From positions 2,211,501 through 2,275,500 of the forward strand of contig CP123444.1 of assembly GCA_029866965.1 (NCBI GenBank): a DNA stretch of 64,000 bases, read 5' to 3'. A program made the position numbers and the translations under genes. The notes beneath the pieces were generated by a model. That model saw only the letters and a list, made by a program, of their open reading frames with translations, searched no databases and was not told the origin of the DNA. The DNA comes from Flavobacteriaceae bacterium YJPT1-3. Lineage in GTDB: Bacteria > Bacteroidota > Bacteroidia > Flavobacteriales > Flavobacteriaceae. Shown piece by piece: positions 3,884 through 13,055 of this stretch. How positions within the stretch are numbered: the stretch's first letter is position 1; each line of letters starts with the position of its first letter.

Positions 3884-4020
3884 TAAGCAAACCCGGTGAT
3901 TGGGGATTTGACAATCGCAGCCTTGTTTTGTTGCGAATCTCATAATAATCACACTAATCCTAGATTTTTAGCAGTTGTCTCTGTTCTGATTGCTAGAAGT
4001 TTATATCTTTAATCTATACT

Positions 4021-4137
4021 ATGAAGCATACGCTGGTACATATCACACAAACGATCCTTGAGCTCCTTCAAGGTGCTGCGGCTTTACGCCCTGTGATGAT
4101 TCCTGTACGCCGCCGTACGTTGCGCCGCCGCCCGTAA
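4021..4137 (+). CDS. Candidate arginine leader peptide (38 aa, two RRR blocks before the stop)
   Basis: Short frame from ATG 4021 to TAA 4135-4137, about 90 bp before the first gene of the arginine operon. Seven of its last 16 codons are arginine: one CGC at codon 23, then CGC-CGC-CGT at 30-32 and CGC-CGC-CGC at 35-37, giving the ending PVRRRTLRRRP. This layout, regulatory codons just before the stop followed by foldable RNA and a T run, is what ribosome-mediated attenuators look like in his, trp or leu operons. Function is inferred; the peptide itself is probably of no consequence. A weak -7-like TATCTTTA lies at 4004-4011, so the transcript would start very close to this ATG. No other gene is visible in 3884-4224. 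Confidence 0.6.
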   Translation: MKHTLVHITQTILELLQGAAALRPVMIPVRRRTLRRRP

Positions 4138-4193
4138 GGGTGCGTTCAATTTCTGGAACCCAGGTGAGTCCGGTTCTCAATTCCCATTTTTTT
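4138..4193 (+). promoter_or_regulatory. Candidate attenuator: mutually exclusive stems and T7 run after the Arg-rich leader
   Basis: Immediately after the leader stop, GAACCC at 4156-4161 can pair upstream with GGG (4138-4140) plus TTC (4145-4147), or downstream as GAACC with GGTTC at 4172-4176. A second arrangement pairs TGGAA (4154-4158) with TTCC(C)A (4181-4186), enclosing TGAG/CTCA (4165-4168 with 4176-4179), and is followed directly by seven T at 4187-4193. The stems are short and the fold was judged by eye only. The downstream structure with its T run would be the terminator and the upstream pairing its competitor. Confidence 0.45.
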
Positions 4194-4224
4194 CTCTAAT
4201 TATTCACGATAAGAATTCCGCCTT

Positions 4225-4866
4225 ATGGATATTGTTATTGCTAATCAATCACACAGTCATTACGCGCCCATCATTTGCGACACCATAGCCGCCAGTGCTC
4301 AGGTACGCGGTACCGGCATAGCGCGCAGGACTCCAGCCTATATCCTCACCAAAATGGAAAACGGGAATGCGGTCATCGCCTTGGACGGTGAAACTTTCGC
4401 CGGTTTCTGCTATATCGAAGCCTGGGGACACGAAAAATTTGTGGCCAACTCCGGACTCATCGTGCATCCGGATTATCGGGGTCAGGGTTTGGCCAAGAAG
4501 ATCAAGAAAGCCATTTTCGAGCATTCGCGAAAAAAATATCCGGCCGCCAAGATCTTTGGGATCACCACTGGACTTGCGGTCATGAAGATCAATTCAGACC
4601 TGGGGTATAAGCCGGTCACCTTTTCCGAACTGACCGACGATCAAGCCTTCTGGAATGGCTGTCAAACCTGTAAGAATTACGATGTACTCCAACGCACAGA
4701 GCAGAAAATGTGTTTGTGTACGGGCATGCTCTATGATCCGGCAGTAGAAGAAAAGAAAAAAGAAAAGGATAAGGAACAGGTAAATGGAAAAGCTTTTCAG
4801 CGGCTAAAAAGTATTAAGCAGCACCTGTTTTTACCCAAGAAAGACAAGAATAATGAGACGGCTTAG
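4225..4866 (+). CDS. GNAT-family N-acyltransferase heading the arginine operon (probable glutamate N-acyltransferase)
   Basis: A 213-residue protein with a GNAT core: acyl-CoA loop HPDYRGQGLAKK (Arg85, Gly86, Gly88) preceded by the strand GLIVHP. After the GNAT core comes a cysteine pair CQTC (146, 149) and a CLC (163, 165), which could bind a metal, then a lysine-rich tail. It is 18 bp upstream of argG. The operon otherwise has all steps for the N-acylated ornithine route except the first, so the natural assignment is glutamate N-acetyl- or N-succinyltransferase (the argA role). That function is inferred from position; sequence alone only supports GNAT. It lacks the amino-acid-kinase domain of classical ArgA. 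Confidence 0.75.
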   Translation: MDIVIANQSHSHYAPIICDTIAASAQVRGTGIARRTPAYILTKMENGNAVIALDGETFAGFCYIEAWGHEKFVANSGLIVHPDYRGQGLAKKIKKAIFEHSRKKYPAAKIFGITTGLAVMKINSDLGYKPVTFSELTDDQAFWNGCQTCKNYDVLQRTEQKMCLCTGMLYDPAVEEKKKEKDKEQVNGKAFQRLKSIKQHLFLPKKDKNNETA

Positions 4867-4884: not shown

Positions 4885-6069
4885 ATGAAAAAAATAGTAT
4901 TAGCCTATAGCGGCGGCCTTGACACCTCGTATTGCGCGGTGCTGCTGAGTCAGCAAGGTCATGAAGTGCATGCAGTCAGTGTAAATACCGGAGGGTTTTC
5001 TGCTCAGGAGATCGACCTGATCAAAGGAAAAGCCCTGACAATGGGAGTTAAGTCGTATGTGAATATCCATGCGGTGGAAACCTATTATGAGAAAGTCGTC
5101 AAGTATTTGATCTATGGGAATGTGCTTAAGAACAATACTTATCCCTTGTCGGTTAGTGCAGAACGGGTGGTGCAAGCCATGGAAATTATCAATTACGCCA
5201 AGGAGATTGGAGCTGATGCCGTAGCGCACGGAAGTACCGGTGCCGGAAACGACCAGGTGCGCTTCGACATGATTTTCCAGACTCTGGCTCCGGAAATCGA
5301 GATCATTACCCCCATACGGGATGGTTCGCTTTCGCGAAAGCAGGAAATTGAATACCTACAGGAAAACGGCGTCGACCTCTCTTGGGAGAAGGCGCAGTAC
5401 TCCGTCAATAAGGGTTTATGGGGCACCAGTGTGGGCGGTAAAGAAACCCTGACCTCCAGAGAGGGGCTACCGGAAGAGGCTTATCCAAGTCCGTTGACGA
5501 AATCCAAAGCAGAACCAGTCACCTTAAAATTTGAAGCCGGAGAGCTGGTTGGGGTTAATGATCACTTTGGACAACCCCATGAGAACATCGAAGCTTTAGA
5601 GTCCCTGGCCAAGGGCTTCGGGATCGGGCGAGATATCCACGTAGGCGATACCATCGTGGGCATCAAGGGGCGTGTAGGCTTTGAGGCCGCCGCACCGCTA
5701 ATGATCTTGAAAGCCCATCATCTGCTGGAAAAACATACGTTGAGTAAATGGCAGTTGCAGCACAAAGACAACCTGGCTTCCTGGTACGGCATGCATTTGC
5801 ATGAGGGCCTGTATCTGGATCCTGTCATGCGGGATATAGAAGCTTTTCTGCAGAGCAGTCAAAAGCAGGTCAGTGGTAGTGTCTATCTGAATCTGTACCC
5901 CCGTCATTTTGAATTGACGGGAATTGAATCTCCCAACGACCTGATGCAATCCAAATTTGGTCAGTACGGGGAGGAAAATCTAAGCTGGACTGCAGAGGAG
6001 GTCAAAGGTTTTATTAAGGTCAATAGTACGGCGACCAAGATCCATCACCAACTCAGCGCACAAGCATGA
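4885..6069 (+). CDS. argG: Argininosuccinate synthase
   Basis: ATP-dependent ligase joining citrulline and aspartate. 394 residues, the usual length. The PP-loop SGGLDTS is at residues 9-15 and HGSTGAGNDQ, the second nucleotide/citrulline loop, at 115-124. It follows the GNAT gene by 18 bp and its stop overlaps the argC start (ATGA). The coding sequence contains an exact copy of the palindrome GCTTTCGCGAAAGC at 5328-5341, read as LSRK. Confidence 0.97.
   Translation: MKKIVLAYSGGLDTSYCAVLLSQQGHEVHAVSVNTGGFSAQEIDLIKGKALTMGVKSYVNIHAVETYYEKVVKYLIYGNVLKNNTYPLSVSAERVVQAMEIINYAKEIGADAVAHGSTGAGNDQVRFDMIFQTLAPEIEIITPIRDGSLSRKQEIEYLQENGVDLSWEKAQYSVNKGLWGTSVGGKETLTSREGLPEEAYPSPLTKSKAEPVTLKFEAGELVGVNDHFGQPHENIEALESLAKGFGIGRDIHVGDTIVGIKGRVGFEAAAPLMILKAHHLLEKHTLSKWQLQHKDNLASWYGMHLHEGLYLDPVMRDIEAFLQSSQKQVSGSVYLNLYPRHFELTGIESPNDLMQSKFGQYGEENLSWTAEEVKGFIKVNSTATKIHHQLSAQA
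5328..5341. repeat. GCTTTCGCGAAAGC palindrome in argG
   Basis: Exact copy, read LSRK. Confidence 0.95.
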
Positions 6070-7039
6070 TCAGTGTTGGCATCATAGGAGGCGCCGGCTA
6101 TACTGCTGGAGAATTGATCCGATTGTTGGTTTTTCATCCGGAGGTGGAACTGCGGTTTGTGTACAGCAGCAGCCAGGCCGGTCAGCCCATCGCGTACACC
6201 CATGGAGACCTCACGGGGGTCACGGACCAGCGCTTTACCGATGAGGTTAAGACCGATGTGGACGTGCTTTTTCTTTGTCTGGGACATGGAAAATCCAAAG
6301 CTTTTTGGAAGCAAATCCCTTACCTGTGCAAACCAAGATCATCGATCTCAGTACCGATTTCCGGGCAAAAGAGGAGGCGTATTTTGAAGAGAAAAGCTTT
6401 ATGTACGGACTGCCAGAACTAAATCGAGAAGCCATACGGAAGGCTAATGCTATCGCCAATCCGGGCTGTTTTGCTACGGCCATTCAATTGGCGCTGCTGC
6501 CCTTGGCTCAGGATCAACAGCTCAACCCATCGGTGCATGTGCACGCGGTCACCGGCGCTACCGGCGCGGGAACTTCGCTCAGCAGTACGGGACATTTTGC
6601 CTGGAGGGATAATAATTTTTCCTACTACAAGCCTTTCATTCATCAGCATTTGGAAGAGATCGAGCAGTCTCTGGAGCAGGTGGGCCAAAGGCCGGACCGC
6701 TTGCATTTCCTTCCACATCGCGGGAATTTTTCCAGAGGTATTTTTGCGACGGTCTATTTGACCTATGATCATTCTCTGGCAGAAGCCAAAGCCCAATTTG
6801 AACGCTTTTATCAGGATGCAGCTTTTACCCATCTTTCCGATCAACCGCTCCATCTCAAGCAGGTGATCAATACGAATAAGGCCCTGTTGCATTTGCATAA
6901 GCATGACGATCAATTACTGATCACCAGTATTATCGACAATCTGCTGAAGGGAGCGTCGGGTCAGGCGGTACAGAATATGAATTTAATGTTCGGACTGGAA
7001 GAAACCACCGGACTGCTTTTGAAAGGAAGCTACTTTTAA
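6066..7039 (+). pseudogene. argC: N-acyl-gamma-glutamyl-phosphate reductase, frame broken by an apparent 1-nt deletion
   Basis: NADPH-dependent reductase of the N-acylglutamyl-phosphate step. The N-terminal part (GIIGGAGYTAGELIRLL, dinucleotide site) reads in frame from ATG 6066 to GHGKSKAF; the rest (LEANPLPVQTKIIDLSTDFR onward, with the catalytic Cys in ANPGCFATA) continues in another frame. The break is at a run of five T at 6302-6306. Adding one T gives 975 bp and a 324-residue protein, exactly the family length, with no other defect. As written, translation would stop near 6422. A sequencing or assembly indel in the homopolymer, a real mutation, or slippage at the T run are all possible. 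It overlaps argG by 4 bp and is followed 11 bp later by proC. Confidence 0.9.
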
Positions 7040-7050
7040 CGACTAGCAGT

Positions 7051-7851
7051 ATGAAAATAGCCATTATAGGAGCCGGAAATTTAGGATTGTCGATCGCCAA
7101 GGGCTTGATCGTAAACAATACTATTACTTCTTTGTATCTGACCAAGCGTTCTCTGGAGACCATTAAATCCTACGGGACTTACAAAAACGTCACCCTGACT
7201 TCAGATAATGTGAAGGCAGTTCAGCAGTCGGATATTCTCCTATTTGCGGTACAACCGGCTCAATTCAAAGCGATTTTGGAAGAAATCGAACCCCATCTGA
7301 CCGAAAAACACGTGTTGATCTCTACCATTACCGGTTTTCAGATCGCACAAATGGAAGCCATCGTAGGGGAGGAACGCTTTATCATTCGCAGCATGCCCAA
7401 CACAGCTATTGCGGTGGCTAAATCCATGACCTGCTTGTGCAGCAATGTGCAGGGGACCAAGCGTATCAAAATTGCGGAAGCTATTTTCAATGGATTAGGA
7501 ACCACGGCCATTATTGAAGAACAGTTGATGCAGGCCGCCACGGTGGTCTGTGCCAGTGGAATTGCCTTTTGGATGCGTTTGATACGTGCTACCACTCAGG
7601 CAGCCATTCAATTGGGCTTTGATGCCGAAGAAGCTCAGAAAATGGCCATGCATACCTGTGAAGGAGCCGCCGCCTTACTTATCGAATCCGGGAATCATCC
7701 AGAGCAGGAGATCGATAAAGTGACCACGCCCAGAGGCTGCACCATAGAAGGTTTAAACGAAATGGAACACAAAGGGCTCAGCTCTTCCCTGATCCAGGGA
7801 ATGGTTGCCTCCTATGCCAAGATCAACACCATCAAGAGCCGGCAGTTATGA
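7051..7851 (+). CDS. proC: Pyrroline-5-carboxylate reductase
   Basis: NAD(P)H enzyme reducing 1-pyrroline-5-carboxylate to proline. 266 residues, typical for the family. Rossmann motif GAGNLG is at 7-12; the SMPNTAI motif and the C-terminal helical region with TTPRGCTIEGLNEME are present. It sits inside the arginine operon, 11 bp after argC and overlapping argD by 4 bp (ATGA), which couples proline formation to arginine-pathway expression. proA and proB are not in the window. Confidence 0.95.
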   Translation: MKIAIIGAGNLGLSIAKGLIVNNTITSLYLTKRSLETIKSYGTYKNVTLTSDNVKAVQQSDILLFAVQPAQFKAILEEIEPHLTEKHVLISTITGFQIAQMEAIVGEERFIIRSMPNTAIAVAKSMTCLCSNVQGTKRIKIAEAIFNGLGTTAIIEEQLMQAATVVCASGIAFWMRLIRATTQAAIQLGFDAEEAQKMAMHTCEGAAALLIESGNHPEQEIDKVTTPRGCTIEGLNEMEHKGLSSSLIQGMVASYAKINTIKSRQL

Positions 7852-8993
7852 GTTTATTTCAGGTCTATCCATTGTACGACGTCACCCCCGAAAGGGCCGA
7901 AGACGTATTTGTATATGATGATCAGGGTACCCAGTACCTCGATCTCTATGGTGGGCATGCCGTGATCTCTATCGGGCACTGCCATCCGCACTTTACGGAA
8001 CAATTAAAGAAACAATTAGAAAACTTGCCTTTTTACAGCAACGCGGTCAAAAATCCGGTACAGGAGCTGCTTTCGCGAAAGCTTACCCAGCAATCGGCCT
8101 GTCCCGAGTATCAGCTGTTTCTATGCAGCAGTGGGGCAGAGGCTAATGAAAATGCCTTGAAATTGGCTTCGTTTCATACCGGGCGCAGCCAGGTGATCGC
8201 TTTTCACAACAGCTTCCACGGTCGGACTTCAGCGGCCGTGGCCGCTACGGATAATAAGGCGATCATAGCCCCCATTAACGCTCAGCAGGAAGTGGCTTTT
8301 CTCCCGTTAGGCGATCTGGAACGACTCGAAAAAGAATTGGTCAGACAGAAAGCTTGCGCCGTCATTCTGGAATTTATACAAGGAGTAGGTGGCCTGGACG
8401 AAAGTAGTGCTGAATTTTATAAAGGAGTAGCCCGCTTGTGTAAAAAATACGGCAGCTGTCTCATTGCTGATGAAGTACAGGCAGGCTTTGGTAGAACAGG
8501 AGATTTTTTTGCTTTTCAGAAGTATGACATTAAGCCTGATATCATATCGATGGCTAAGGGCATGGGAAATGGATTTCCGGTGGGCGGGATACTCATCCAC
8601 CCTGATATCAAGGCCAGTCACGGTTTATTGGGGACCACCTTTGGAGGCAATCATTTGGCGTGTACCGCCTCTTTGGCCGTGCTGCACGTACTGGAAGATC
8701 AGCAATTACTGCCGCACGCTTTGGAGATGGAAGATTACTTTAGAGCCAAGGCTGCTCATGTGCCGGAAATCAAAAAGATCAAAGGTCGGGGACTCATGCT
8801 GGGGCTTGAATTCGAATTTGAAGTGGGGGAACTGAGAAAAAAACTCATCTACGACAAGCACATCTTTACCGGTGGGGCCAAAAACAAAAAGCTCTTACGT
8901 ATCCTGCCCCCATTAACCCTACAGCAAGAGCACATCGATTTCTTTTTTAAAGCATTACGAGAATCTTTAAATCACTTACCTCAGGGCTCATGA
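7848..8993 (+). CDS. argD: N-acetyl- (or N-succinyl-) ornithine aminotransferase
   Basis: Class III PLP aminotransferase of 381 residues, exchanging the amino group between glutamate and the N-acyl-ornithine semialdehyde. Visible: SSGAEAN at 94-100 (phosphate contacts), NSFHGRT at 121-127, Asp208 in ADEVQAGFGR (pyridine nitrogen) and the Schiff-base Lys237 in SMAKGMGNGFPVGG. Start ATG overlaps the proC stop and its own stop overlaps the next gene (ATGA at both ends). It carries an exact palindrome copy at 8069-8082, read as LSRK. Whether acetyl or succinyl is used depends on the neighbouring transcarbamylase. Confidence 0.95.
   Translation: MSLFQVYPLYDVTPERAEDVFVYDDQGTQYLDLYGGHAVISIGHCHPHFTEQLKKQLENLPFYSNAVKNPVQELLSRKLTQQSACPEYQLFLCSSGAEANENALKLASFHTGRSQVIAFHNSFHGRTSAAVAATDNKAIIAPINAQQEVAFLPLGDLERLEKELVRQKACAVILEFIQGVGGLDESSAEFYKGVARLCKKYGSCLIADEVQAGFGRTGDFFAFQKYDIKPDIISMAKGMGNGFPVGGILIHPDIKASHGLLGTTFGGNHLACTASLAVLHVLEDQQLLPHALEMEDYFRAKAAHVPEIKKIKGRGLMLGLEFEFEVGELRKKLIYDKHIFTGGAKNKKLLRILPPLTLQQEHIDFFFKALRESLNHLPQGS
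8069..8082. repeat. GCTTTCGCGAAAGC palindrome in argD
   Basis: Exact copy, read LSRK. Confidence 0.95.
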
Positions 8994-9943
8994 AGAAATA
9001 CACCGCTATCCATGACATTACTGATCTGCACGCTTGGATTGAAGAAGCCAGGCACTTAAAGAAGGATCCCTTTGCATTTGAACATTTGGGCAAACGGAAG
9101 ACCCTCTGTATGCTGTTCTTTAATCCCAGTTTACGCACACGGATCAGTACTGAAAAAGCAGCCCGGAATTTAGGTATGGAGGTCATCATCCTGAATGTTG
9201 GCAGTGATTCCTGGGTTCTGGAATTTGAAGATGGTACCGTTATGAATGCCGGGAGTAGTGAACACATCAGGGAAGCTGCCGGAGTACTTTCGCAATATGC
9301 CGATGTCCTGGCCGTACGCGCCTTCCCCGAACTGAAAAGTCGGACTGCCGATGAAGACGAACGCATCCTAACTAGTTTTATCCAGCACGCGTCCATACCC
9401 GTAGTTAACATGGAAAGTGCTACCGCTCATCCCTTGCAAGCCCTGTCTGATGCGATCACCATCAGCGAACAACAAAAAACGTCCAGACCCAAAGTGGTCC
9501 TGTCCTGGGCTCCTCATCCCAAGGCGCTGCCGCATGCCGTTGCGAATTCTTTTGTGCAGATCATGAAGCGCATGCCGGTTGATCTGACCATCACGCATCC
9601 AGAGGGCTACGACTTAAATCCTGAAGTTACCGGAGCTATCCCGATCAATTATAATCAAGAGGAAGCTCTCCAGGAGGCCGATTTTGTTTACGTTAAAAAT
9701 TGGAGTAGCTATTTGGACTACGGTAAGGTACTCGAGGATCCTCAAGGAGTGCATGCAAAGTGGATCATGACCAAAGAAAAATTAGGCAAAGCGCAATTCA
9801 TGCATTGCCTACCGGTACGGCGAAATGTCGTGGTGGAAGATGCCGTACTGGACAGCACCCAATCGTTGGTCCTGGAGCAAGCCAATAATCGCACCTATGC
9901 CGCTCAATTAGCGCTTAAAAAGATACTTGCTGATGAAATCTAA
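8990..9943 (+). CDS. argF': N-acylornithine carbamoyltransferase (SOTCase/AOTCase family)
   Basis: Transfers a carbamoyl group to an N-acylated ornithine, the step that distinguishes the Bacteroides/Xanthomonas type of arginine synthesis from the common OTCase route. 317 residues. Carbamoyl-phosphate loop FFNPSLRTR is at 43-51, HCLPVRRN is near the C-terminus, and TWAPHPKxLP-like SWAPHPKALP is present, all closer to the N-acylornithine enzymes than to ArgF. The residue that sets the choice between succinyl (Pro90 in Bacteroides fragilis) and acetyl (Glu92 in Xanthomonas) substrates is here Ser90 (GSSEHI), so the acyl group cannot be called from sequence. The literature residues are recalled from memory. 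It overlaps argD by 4 bp and argB by 11 bp. Confidence 0.9.
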   Translation: MKKYTAIHDITDLHAWIEEARHLKKDPFAFEHLGKRKTLCMLFFNPSLRTRISTEKAARNLGMEVIILNVGSDSWVLEFEDGTVMNAGSSEHIREAAGVLSQYADVLAVRAFPELKSRTADEDERILTSFIQHASIPVVNMESATAHPLQALSDAITISEQQKTSRPKVVLSWAPHPKALPHAVANSFVQIMKRMPVDLTITHPEGYDLNPEVTGAIPINYNQEEALQEADFVYVKNWSSYLDYGKVLEDPQGVHAKWIMTKEKLGKAQFMHCLPVRRNVVVEDAVLDSTQSLVLEQANNRTYAAQLALKKILADEI

Positions 9944-10715
9944 ACTGACTGTAGTCAAGGTAGGAGGGAATCTTCTGGAAGATCAGCTACGCTGCCAAAA
10001 GATCCTAACCGCTTTCGCGAAAGCTGAAAGCCCCAAGATCCTGGTTCATGGTGGCGGAAAACTGGCCAGTAAGTTGGCGATGGACCTGGGTATAACCGTC
10101 AACATGCATGAGGGCCGACGGATCACCGATGGGGCTACTCTGGAGGTCATTGTGATGGCCTACGCCGGAAAGGTGAATAAGGAAGTGGTTGCCGCATTGC
10201 AAAAGGAGGGCTGCGATGCCATCGGGCTTTCCGGAGCGGATGCCAATCTTATCCAAGCGATAAAACGGCCTGTTGCCGAGGTGGATTTTGGCTTTGCCGG
10301 CGACATTACGCAGGTCCATACGAAGACCTTACTTGCCTTACTTGATCTTGGATTGGTCCCTGTTTTTTGCGCGCTGACCCATGACGGGAAAGGCCAGCTT
10401 TTAAATACCAATGCAGATACCATAGCGGCTGCTTTGTGCGGGGCCCTTTCGGATCATTATGAAGTGACCCTGAAGTATTGTTTTGAAAAAAAAGGAGTGC
10501 TACGCGATGTGGAGGACGAGGCGTCCGTAATCCCCGAAATCACGCCCAATACGGTTCAGCAGCTCATTGCTACAGGCGTCATTTCAGACGGCATGCTCCC
10601 GAAAATTCACAACAGTCTAAAGGCACTTCAGTCTGGAGCCAAGGCCGTACACATCGGGAATGAAGAGATCATCAATGGGACTGCAAAACACTTTACAACA
10701 CTGCGTCATGAGTAA
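9933..10715 (+). CDS. argB: N-acylglutamate kinase
   Basis: Phosphorylates N-acylglutamate in the second step of arginine synthesis. Amino-acid-kinase fold of 260 residues: KVGGNLL near the N-terminus and VHGGGKLASKL (acylglutamate and phosphate loops) are clear. I take ATG 9933, inside the end of argF', rather than the TTG six bases earlier. The N-terminal helix that makes some acetylglutamate kinases arginine-sensitive is absent, so feedback inhibition is less likely. It contains an exact palindrome copy at 10011-10024, read as AFAK. Confidence 0.93.
   Translation: MKSKLTVVKVGGNLLEDQLRCQKILTAFAKAESPKILVHGGGKLASKLAMDLGITVNMHEGRRITDGATLEVIVMAYAGKVNKEVVAALQKEGCDAIGLSGADANLIQAIKRPVAEVDFGFAGDITQVHTKTLLALLDLGLVPVFCALTHDGKGQLLNTNADTIAAALCGALSDHYEVTLKYCFEKKGVLRDVEDEASVIPEITPNTVQQLIATGVISDGMLPKIHNSLKALQSGAKAVHIGNEEIINGTAKHFTTLRHE
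10011..10024. repeat. GCTTTCGCGAAAGC palindrome in argB
   Basis: Exact copy, read AFAKA. Confidence 0.95.
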
Positions 10716-11775
10716 TAACGAAGCAATCACCAACTCAGCCATCGCCTTGCTAAAAGCACTGATCGCCACCCCTTCTTTCTCTTCAGAGGAAGAGGGGACC
10801 GCTCAACTTTTAGAGGGTTGGATGCAGGAGTATGAGATCAAGTATCAGCGGACCCAGAACAATGTTTGGGCGGTAAACAAGCACTTTAAAGCCGGTAAAC
10901 CCACCTTGCTTCTCAATTCACATCACGATACGGTCAAGCCGAATTCAGCCTATACGCTCGACCCCTTTACACCCATCGTAAAGGACCGAAAACTCTACGG
11001 ACTGGGGAGTAATGATGCCGGGGGCTGCCTGGTTTCTTTATTGGCGACCTTCACCCATTTTTACGATCAGTCGGATCTCAACTACAATCTGGTTTTCGTA
11101 GGTTCCGCCGAAGAAGAAAGCAGTGGACCGAATGGATTGAACAGCATGCTTGAAGTAATACCAACCATTGACGTGGCTATTGTTGGAGAGCCCACGCAGA
11201 TGCATTTAGCTGTAGCAGAAAAAGGCCTGGTGGTCTTTGATGCGGTAGTGAAGGGTACTCCTTCCCACGCGGCACACCCCAATGAAGACAATGCCCTGTA
11301 TAAGGCAATACCATTTTTGCAGTGGTGTAAGGATTTTCGTTTTGAAAAAGAGTCGGAGCAACTAGGCGCTGTTAAACTCACCCTCACTCAAATGCAGGCC
11401 GGTAAGCAGCACAATGCGGTTCCGGCCCAGGTAGACCTGGTGGTTGATGTACGGGTCAATGATTGTTATACCAATGCCGAGATCCAGGAGATCGTTCAAC
11501 GGGAAGCTCCCTGCGATGCGATCGAGCCACGCAGTCTGCGACTTAATTCGAGTTCCATTCCACTCGAACACGAACTGGTACAGGCCGGTCTGGCTTTGGG
11601 AAGATCCACTTATGGGTCGCCCACCTTGAGCGATCAGGCTTGTTTGAGCTGCCCCTCCTTAAAATTGGGTCCGGGTGACAGTACCCGATCCCATAGCGCT
11701 GATGAATTTATTCACCTGCACGAAATTGAAGAAGGCATTAATCTCTATATTCAACTTTTAGAACGCATAGTATGA
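10708..11775 (+). CDS. argE: N-acetylornithine/N-acylcitrulline deacylase, M20 family
   Basis: Zinc-dependent M20 hydrolase removing the N-acyl group, here most likely from N-acylcitrulline given the transcarbamylase type. About 355 residues from ATG 10708, which overlaps the argB stop by 8 bp; an upstream in-frame ATG at 10660 would add 16 residues that are really argB sequence and is rejected. Metal and catalytic landmarks: SHHDTV, the bridging Asp in SNDAGG, AEEESSG (catalytic Glu pair), GEPT and the late His in STRSHSADEF. The stop overlaps argH (ATGA). Confidence 0.92.
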   Translation: MSNNEAITNSAIALLKALIATPSFSSEEEGTAQLLEGWMQEYEIKYQRTQNNVWAVNKHFKAGKPTLLLNSHHDTVKPNSAYTLDPFTPIVKDRKLYGLGSNDAGGCLVSLLATFTHFYDQSDLNYNLVFVGSAEEESSGPNGLNSMLEVIPTIDVAIVGEPTQMHLAVAEKGLVVFDAVVKGTPSHAAHPNEDNALYKAIPFLQWCKDFRFEKESEQLGAVKLTLTQMQAGKQHNAVPAQVDLVVDVRVNDCYTNAEIQEIVQREAPCDAIEPRSLRLNSSSIPLEHELVQAGLALGRSTYGSPTLSDQACLSCPSLKLGPGDSTRSHSADEFIHLHEIEEGINLYIQLLERIV

Positions 11776-13055
11776 AACTTTGGGACAAAGGAATGACCAT
11801 CGATGACAAAATCCTCCGGTTTACCGTTGGCAATGATCGGGAGATCGATATGCATATTGCCAAGTACGACCTCATGGCCACCAAAGCCCATGTCAAAATG
11901 CTGGGGAAGGTCGATCTACTGAGCGAGGAAGAGGTCGGTCAGCTCGTACCTGAATTGGATCAACTGTTGAGCGAACTGGCGCGCGGGCAGTTTGTGATCG
12001 ACCCCATCTATGAAGACATTCACAGTAAGATAGAAGGAGAATTGACGTCCCGCCTGGGCGATGTGGGCAAGAAAGTTCACAGTGCGCGTTCGCGAAATGA
12101 TCAGGTGCTGGTCGCCTTGCACTTGTACTATAAAGACAGTTTGAAGGCCATTACGACCAAGACGGCCACCCTGTTCCATACCCTGATCGATCTGGCCCAC
12201 CGTCATAAGGAGCAGCTGCTTCCGGGCTATACCCATCTTCAGGTGGCCATGCCGAGTAGTTTTGGGCTTTGGTTCTCGTCCTATGCCGAACTCTTGATCG
12301 ATGATGTGTACCTGATCAAGGCGGCGCAAATGGTTGTCGATCAGAATCCATTGGGATCAGCGGCTGGTTATGGTAGCTCCTTTCCCATTGACCGGGAGTA
12401 CACTACCCAGTTGCTTGAATTCCACACCCTAAAATACAATGTAGTAGCGGCCCAGATGGCCCGCGGAAAGAGTGAACGTACCCTTTCTGCTGCCCTGGGG
12501 GGTCTTGCTAACACGCTTTCGCGAATGGCGATGGACATCTGTCTTTACATGAGCCAGAATTTCGATTTTATCAGCTTCCCGGATGCACTGACCACGGGGT
12601 CCAGCATTATGCCCCACAAAAAGAATCCGGATGTTTTTGAATTGATCCGCGGGAAGTGCAATAAGATCCAGGCGCTATCCAATGAAATGATTCTATTGAC
12701 CAATAATCTACCCAGCGGCTACCAACGGGATTATCAATTGCTGAAAGAAAGCATGATCGAAGCTCTGGAAACCCTACAGGATATACTTGATATTAGCGCT
12801 TATGCCATTGCTCAGGTAGAAGTCAAGACGGTTGATCTCACGCAGGAGAAGTATCAATACTTATTCTCGGTGGATGCGGTCAATGCCTTAGTCATGCAGG
12901 GGAAAAGCTTTCGCGAAAGCTATCAGCTCATAGGTGAGCAGATCGAGAAAGGTACCTATAAGGCTGATCGCTCTAAAAAGCACACCCATTTGGGGAGTAT
13001 TCACAATCTCGCCCTGGACAAGATCAGGGAAAAAATGAATGAGGCCTTGTCCTAA
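11772..13055 (+). CDS. argH: Argininosuccinate lyase
   Basis: Cleaves argininosuccinate into arginine and fumarate, the last step of the pathway. 427 residues, slightly shorter than the 455-470 common elsewhere. The fumarase/aspartase superfamily signature GSSIMPHKKNPD with the catalytic serine is intact, as are GYTHLQVAMP and the N-terminal HSARSRNDQV. It is the last gene of the operon. It holds an exact palindrome copy at 12907-12920 (read as FRES) and a partial one at about 12515 (GCTTTCGCGAATGG). No clear terminator is visible in the 61 bp before the convergent leuB end. Confidence 0.96.
   Translation: MKLWDKGMTIDDKILRFTVGNDREIDMHIAKYDLMATKAHVKMLGKVDLLSEEEVGQLVPELDQLLSELARGQFVIDPIYEDIHSKIEGELTSRLGDVGKKVHSARSRNDQVLVALHLYYKDSLKAITTKTATLFHTLIDLAHRHKEQLLPGYTHLQVAMPSSFGLWFSSYAELLIDDVYLIKAAQMVVDQNPLGSAAGYGSSFPIDREYTTQLLEFHTLKYNVVAAQMARGKSERTLSAALGGLANTLSRMAMDICLYMSQNFDFISFPDALTTGSSIMPHKKNPDVFELIRGKCNKIQALSNEMILLTNNLPSGYQRDYQLLKESMIEALETLQDILDISAYAIAQVEVKTVDLTQEKYQYLFSVDAVNALVMQGKSFRESYQLIGEQIEKGTYKADRSKKHTHLGSIHNLALDKIREKMNEALS
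12907..12920. repeat. GCTTTCGCGAAAGC palindrome in argH
   Basis: Exact copy, read SFRES. Confidence 0.95.

Follow-up and report, generated by a model that had tools for sequence, protein, structure and literature searches.

The window analysed here is a 64,000-nucleotide stretch of the genome of Flavobacteriaceae bacterium YJPT1-3, which consists of one contig of 3.16 Mb. A threonine ammonia-lyase gene (to position 2251) and an aldehyde-dehydrogenase-like gene (to 3883) are followed by a short arginine-rich open reading frame (ORF), two small hairpins (H1 and H2), a run of seven T (T7), and an operon for arginine biosynthesis. The features are as follows.

4004..4011, forward strand: possible -7 promoter box, TATCTTTA, read from the sequence; its last base deviates from the consensus
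4021..4137, forward strand: leader peptide ORF with the C-terminus VRRRTLRRRP and the stop codon TAA at 4135-4137; frame kept in relatives
4126..4144, forward strand: H1 hairpin, CGC-C-GCCC / GUAA / GGGU-GCG, from folding; the 5' arm is made of the last Arg and the Pro codons, and the stop codon lies in the loop
4145..4154, forward strand: linker joining the two hairpins; in Flavobacteriaceae rich in U and poor in G (87 distinct elements: 57% T, 6% G)
4155..4177, forward strand: H2 hairpin, GGAACC / CA bulge / GG-UGAGU-CC / GGUUCU, from covariation; near-invariant apex AGGUGAGUCC
4187..4193, forward strand: T7 run, probably part of a U-rich band ahead of the first start codon and not a terminator U-tract
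4225..4866, forward strand: GNAT acetyltransferase (PF13508/PF00583), first gene of the operon
4885..6069, forward strand: argG, argininosuccinate synthase; best NCBIfam models at 287 bits, below the equivalog cut-offs
6066..13055, forward strand: rest of the operon, namely argC (two frames), proC, argD, acetylornithine carbamoyltransferase, argB, an ArgE/DapE-type deacylase and a lyase (argH-like, PF00206), with several of the gene matches scoring under the model's curated cut-off

The GNAT gene was matched in 57 of 149 sampled Bacteroidia genomes, and its top-ranked named relative is from Leeuwenhoekiella (79% identity). The product perhaps forms N-acetylglutamate and is possibly an unrecognised N-acetylglutamate synthase. 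The protein has a Cys-containing stretch and a Lys-rich tail. The two argC frames correspond to positions 2-87 (6066-6422) and 90-341 (6275-7039) of TIGR01850, an apparent frameshift within 6066-7039 that is either real or a sequencing error.

The leader ORF has 38 codons, and its translation reads MKHTLVHITQTILELLQGAAALRPVMIPVRRRTLRRRP. Arg is encoded by codons 23, 30-32 and 35-37, so that seven of the last 16 residues are Arg, and 87 nt separate the stop codon from the start of the operon. The frame described in the earlier note, with seven Arg codons in its last 16 and an arginine operon behind it, was thus borne out by the ORF reading and its translation. Four of five leader peptides had no match in NCBIfam, and the fifth gave only MtrB matches far below the cut-off. 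The -7 box of Bacteroidota promoters has the consensus TAnnTTTG. Of 83 Flavobacteriaceae loci, 42 have an exact copy no more than 30 nt upstream of the leader ATG, against 2.8 expected from mononucleotide shuffling, and five have such a box downstream of the leader; this would put the transcript start beside the leader ATG. By analogy with these relatives, from which the window promoter is deduced, the window transcript would possibly start a few nucleotides ahead of the leader.

Relatives of the GNAT gene provided a first comparison set of 80 loci from named records, many of which show an Arg-rich ORF upstream. We then counted, upstream of GNAT, ORFs that start with ATG and carry at least three Arg among their last 12 codons. 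Such an Arg-ending ORF was found at 87 of 107 Flavobacteriaceae loci (shuffled mean 4.05, maximum 8; antisense 4) and at 33 of 52 loci of Bacteroidia outside Flavobacteriaceae (shuffled mean 4.25, maximum 7; antisense 6). The runner-up amino acids were Pro in the former (23/107) and Leu and Ser in the latter (10/52 each). Three loci (L081, L118 and L119) were removed as copies, and two further Flavobacteriaceae loci (L120 and L121) are in neither group; the 107 loci keep near-identical pairs (e.g., L053/L089 and L009/L099). Because the loci share ancestry and some are duplicates, the counts are not independent.

The reading frame of the leader is itself conserved. No stop codon interrupts the 12 codons up to H1 in the leader frame at any of 100 loci (window copies included), against 16 and 26 loci in the other two frames, and over H1 the leader frame codes for Arg-Pro in 96 of the 100. 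In 57 pairs of sequences pN/pS was 0.50 in the leader frame versus 1.02 and 1.16 in the other frames; the pairs overlap, and two of them (L090/L007 at -72 and L022/L037 at -61) are not leader ORFs. Among the last 14 codons of the 33 leaders from outside Flavobacteriaceae, Arg is encoded by AGG (45), CGA (27), CGC (21), CGT (17), AGA (13) and CGG (2), and 16 of these 33 leaders use both Arg codon families. The open frame, the low pN/pS and the use of both codon families together speak for selection for Arg, and hence for decoding by Arg-tRNA. On this comparative evidence the Arg-codon leader is no chance frame: both the frame and the identity of its Arg residues are conserved.

Nascent-peptide arrest, as in TnaC, which responds to tryptophan, would offer another reason for conserving a peptide end: here an R-R-P-stop terminus would stall the ribosome in response to arginine. 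Arg-Pro does lie over H1 in nearly every locus, often directly before the stop codon. The Pro codon also belongs to H1, however, and the peptide ends vary within and outside Flavobacteriaceae (RRPLGV, FRRR, VRPVFCIRR, RRPYAAG), with Arg common to all; by inspection, leader ends differ widely between families, unlike those of a TnaC-type arrest peptide. We consider arrest extremely improbable.

A further Arg leader (e.g., MFTLRHKYRAPRPTGLDLTKRRR) lies about 230 nt upstream of GNAT in 54 of the 107 Flavobacteriaceae loci (L001-L117), and in 51 of these 54 a T-rich run follows it within 72 nt. Pairing between its coding sequence and the nucleotides that precede the run is better than in shuffled sequence (mean 15.6 versus 12.4, p 1e-8, the loci not being independent), and 31% of the loci are individually below 0.05. 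Where this extra leader is present, the later leader can, by eye, begin with TTG or GTG.

H1 begins at leader codon 36, and its core is almost invariant in Flavobacteriaceae, so that there is no covariation there and its conservation is partly that of the coding sequence; in 33 of 87 distinct elements the outer pair does not form. The 3' arm, GGGT(G), is kept in relatives though it is non-coding. Some relatives terminate translation further on (RRPLGV and similar ends) yet retain H1, which suggests that H1 is kept as RNA. H2 shows changes on both sides in five of six stem pairs and in one of two apical pairs across the 87 distinct sequences, with 58 both-sided cells against 17.1 in shuffled alignments; sliding the pairing by +1 also yields 47 both-sided cells, only 55% of its cells pairing. 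In an alignment of 69 distinct elements, H1 has the consensus CGYCGCCC-KTAA-GGGTG and H2 the apex AGGTGNGTCC, with the U-rich linker in between. The folding energy of the window region is ordinary for its composition (z 0.18 and 0.17). After the fact, an association was seen between the third base of Arg codons and the linker (9:1 versus 5:17, p 0.0006, after exclusion of 55 of the 87 rows).

These comparisons bear on a check proposed in the earlier note, namely to look in related genomes for conserved Arg codons and for stems with compensatory changes. The former are clearly conserved, in the recurrence of Arg-ending ORFs at most Flavobacteriaceae loci and in the purifying selection on their frame. 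The latter proved mixed: H2 covaries, the H1 core does not, the fold is no more stable than its composition predicts, and the two stems are separate.

No Rfam family matched the window at gathering score; the matches below gathering score within 3884-4300 (SNORD115 and mir-2813) were taken as chance. The lack of an Rfam match and the almost invariant H2 apex, which is shaped like a protein-binding bulged hairpin, would suit an H1-H2 element that binds a ligand or protein (for example, arginine itself, or a repressor at its site), with the Arg peptide secondary. Against this, Arg-ending ORFs recur over the Bacteroidia while codons and RNA sequence change freely, and we regard such a binding RNA as very unlikely.

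A covariance model built from the element alignment matched the window's own genome once at high score (65.1 bits; the next match scored 16.9). A separate count placed the element at 72 of 81 loci (the window and the 80 relatives); the model, run on 98 sources that cover a part of the loci, matched 92, and 69 of the sequences had built it. Two genome surveys were carried out with stricter filters, under which weak matches are lost. In the first, the element was found in three of 247 sampled Bacteroidia genomes, all three Flavobacteriaceae; in the second, it was found in 28 of 41 Flavobacteriaceae genomes at an E value of 0.05 or better, 26 of them below 1e-6, and in all 26 the strong match adjoins the GNAT gene on its upstream side. 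A search for argG covered the 15 genomes of the 41 that have no strong element match. Two of them (G263 and G279) have argG, only G279 matches the GNAT gene, and inspection of both shows an Arg leader that starts with GTG and has a hairpin at its stop codon; the other 13 gave no argG or GNAT match beyond weak, paralogue-level ones. The Flavobacterium-type loci (L069, L071, L075, L079, L120 and L121) count against the sensor reading proposed below: the model gave no match there where it was run, and the leaders are weaker, the first four having two or three Arg among their last 14 codons, L120 and L121 fewer. Two more loci (L062 and L077) likewise gave no match. Other genes under the same RNA were considered and rejected: five weak matches in the window's genome (16.9 bits or less) and four in Flavobacteriaceae lie in or beside seemingly non-arginine genes, and one in genome G293 has the look of an ordinary terminator separating other genes. 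The exception among the weak matches (L115) lies ahead of an argG operon that has a different first gene.

Upstream of GNAT, many Bacteroidia outside Flavobacteriaceae carry diverse Arg-ending peptides, and a small hairpin frequently lies at their stop codon. Identified post hoc, the motif CCTAYGYGG mirrors the H2 apex in flipped form; it occurs at nine of 52 such loci (0.135 expected from mononucleotide shuffling; antisense 0), in eight of the nine at 16-26 nt from the leader stop codon. The generic apex form YNNGY, also post hoc, occurs at 15 of 43 loci against 1.8 expected. At three loci (L122, L126 and L142) a possible kissing pair between GCGUA after the stop codon and a UACGC loop was seen by eye; it is absent from the Flavobacteriaceae pattern. 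Two loci (L156 and L157) have Arg leaders with strong terminators (-18.4 and -20.1 kcal/mol) and a U-tract before the same operon, and an antiterminator between the peptide end and the terminator could be paired by eye.

Such terminators would be expected at the window under the reading of the earlier note, a classical attenuator ending at T7 in which alternative stems and a T run follow the leader within 60 bp and the operon comes next. Arg codons, hairpins and T run do stand in the right order, as that reading requires, and terminator-type Arg leaders exist at L156 and L157. The two hairpins, T7 and the operon are all present, but the stems are not mutually exclusive. The best hairpin before a T run in the window reaches only -3.1 kcal/mol, compared with -16.4 kcal/mol for the terminator of the his leader in the same genome, and no stable hairpin abuts T7. 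Across 92 distinct Flavobacteriaceae tails, T6 runs number 38 versus 32.5 in dinucleotide shuffles, with their centre lying 27 nt ahead of the GNAT start codon and not a single run starting within 3 nt of H2; given the weak hairpin and the near-shuffle level of T6 runs, T7 was rejected as a U-tract. The one competing stem examined, a candidate antiterminator pairing the linker with the 5' arm of H2, was not supported, scoring 7.89 versus 7.69 in shuffled sequence (p 0.45, n=84). An intrinsic attenuator with T7 as its terminator is therefore highly improbable. What stands of the attenuator proposal is the conserved Arg-codon leader and, probably, control by the ribosome in a lineage with no detected ArgR; the classical terminator at T7 is not supported.

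The his leader used for this comparison, MRTTNTHHHLLPNAQAR (THHHLL), precedes hisG (L148:1211-1264) and has a U-tract after its terminator. Its presence in the same genome makes control by leader peptides likely in this organism.

A weak intrinsic terminator might instead be formed by H1 and the U-rich linker, and be prevented by a ribosome on the Arg codons. The T content of the linker and the H1 energy (mean -7.7 kcal/mol) would allow it, and at several loci (e.g., L009, L046 and L001) a stem containing H1 is scored as a terminator. Hairpins in the last 150 nt, however, reach -8 kcal/mol in only 25 of 107 Flavobacteriaceae loci and -10 kcal/mol in 15, several H1-like hairpins of other Bacteroidia have by eye no U-tract after them, and the strong conservation of H2 would be left unexplained. 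This arrangement seems quite unlikely.

Control after transcription deserves more weight. The leader ribosome could alter the folding of H1 and H2 and thereby the access of 30S subunits, reinitiation at the GNAT start codon or the access of RNases, with no attenuation at all. No intrinsic terminator is conserved, the U-rich band lies about 27 nt before the start codon, and the logic would be close to that of Salmonella speF orf34 (PMC6386406). The distance from H2 to the GNAT start is tightly kept (median 49 nt, 5-95% range 44-57, n=96, tails over 120 nt left out), and this fixed spacing could fit translational control as well. In five Aquimarina-type loci (L073, L074, L076, L078 and L080), on the other hand, the element lies 213-352 nt upstream, which speaks against a strict need for that spacing, and a 21-sequence alignment shows little kept between H2 and the start codon. 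We judge purely translational or stability control unlikely, though less so than the terminator readings above.

Arginine synthesis is a textbook case of control by a repressor, ArgR. No match to ArgR (PF01316) was found in the window's genome, where a control search was positive in 9 of 14, or in any of 41 sampled Flavobacteriaceae genomes, the window's own included, for which controls were positive. The earlier note had remarked that ribosome-mediated control by Arg codons would be unusual, bacterial arginine operons being usually under ArgR-type repressors. In the wider sample ArgR was matched in eight of 149 Bacteroidia genomes. Four of these also have GNAT, and in all four argR lies directly upstream of it, about 0.3 kb away and on the same strand (G107, G139, G032 and G073, at loci L160, L159, L169 and L145; upstream stretches L185-L188). 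An Arg ORF occurs in the 360 nt before GNAT in none of these four, as against 33 of 48 genomes without ArgR (Fisher p 0.014), a weak contrast given that those 360 nt are mostly argR coding sequence. Before argR itself, three of the four have no Arg ORF, and the fourth has one ORF with three spread-out Arg that is not leader-like. On these four cases, the leader and the ArgR repressor look like alternatives.

Taken as a whole, we consider it probable that the element is a ribosome-based arginine sensor of the arginine operon with a non-classical read-out; for the sensor step itself, in which the ribosome would sense the charging of Arg-tRNA, our confidence is high. With charged Arg-tRNA in short supply, the leading ribosome would stall on Arg codons that precede H1 (codon 23 or codons 30-32), short of the stop codon in H1, so that H1 could form beside H2. 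When arginine is plentiful, the ribosome would reach the stop codon, open H1 and then depart. The difference would be read at H1 and H2, turning the operon on at low arginine; which Arg codons stall the ribosome, and what H2 does, are guesses in this proposal. Given such a sensor, our first choice for the read-out, with about an even chance, is a decision in transcription elongation that needs no strong U-tract, for example through Rho or by pausing at H2. Second, with roughly a one-in-three claim on our belief, comes an effect on first-gene translation or on mRNA stability. More tentatively, H1-H2 may be a new ribosome-read switch, in which the ribosome terminating at the stop codon in the loop, in contrast to one stalled further upstream, holds H1 open and so gates a trans factor (Rho, a paused polymerase or some protein that binds RNA) at the invariant bulged apex of H2, and which would be the main arginine control in much of the Bacteroidia, replacing ArgR.

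The proposed sensor resembles attenuators of the his and trp type in that a short ORF ahead of the operon carries a series of codons for the operon's end product. It differs from them in lacking a strong intrinsic terminator or a supported antiterminator and in placing the stop codon in a hairpin loop. The leaders at L156 and L157 occupy the same position and encode Arg-codon peptides (MTTILLNLRSPRRQPNTAG and MKQVLLNYRSLRRRPYAAG), but with a strong terminator and U-tract. ArgR serves the same pathway elsewhere, but it is a DNA-binding protein, and one that had no match in this genome.

Leaders that sense arginine through Arg codons are described for other genes. In Salmonella, arginine is sensed by two consecutive Arg codons of speF orf34, and both Rho and RNase G have been shown to take part (PMC6386406). 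Both leader ORFs contain Arg codons in succession, and those of orf34 steer RNA structure; orf34, however, controls ornithine decarboxylase and not arginine synthesis (PMC6386406). In Staphylococcus aureus, the leader ORF rbfL senses arginine limitation through AGA and AGG codons and masks the ribosome site of a biofilm regulator, which is thereby repressed (PMC13009471). It too is an Arg-codon leader ORF sensing arginine limitation, and H1-H2 is not among the features described in the part of that source available to us (PMC13009471). Clues of leader-peptide attenuation before amino-acid operons have been described in F. psychrophilum (PMC9723704). Among the literature matches listed, no title or abstract dealt with an Arg leader standing in front of an operon for arginine biosynthesis; Table S7 of PMC9723704 may include one. 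The leader-peptide kind of control is thus already suspected in Flavobacterium (PMC9723704), and the known Arg-sensing leaders, orf34 and rbfL in the sources at hand, serve other genes.

The terminator-bearing leaders at L156 and L157 provide a ready comparison for the terminator-less form. If the interpretation given here is true, a read-out by two hairpins that lacks a terminator would be a new way of getting from the position of a ribosome to the control of a gene, and an Arg-codon leader standing in the place of argR would be the missing arginine regulator of the Bacteroidia.
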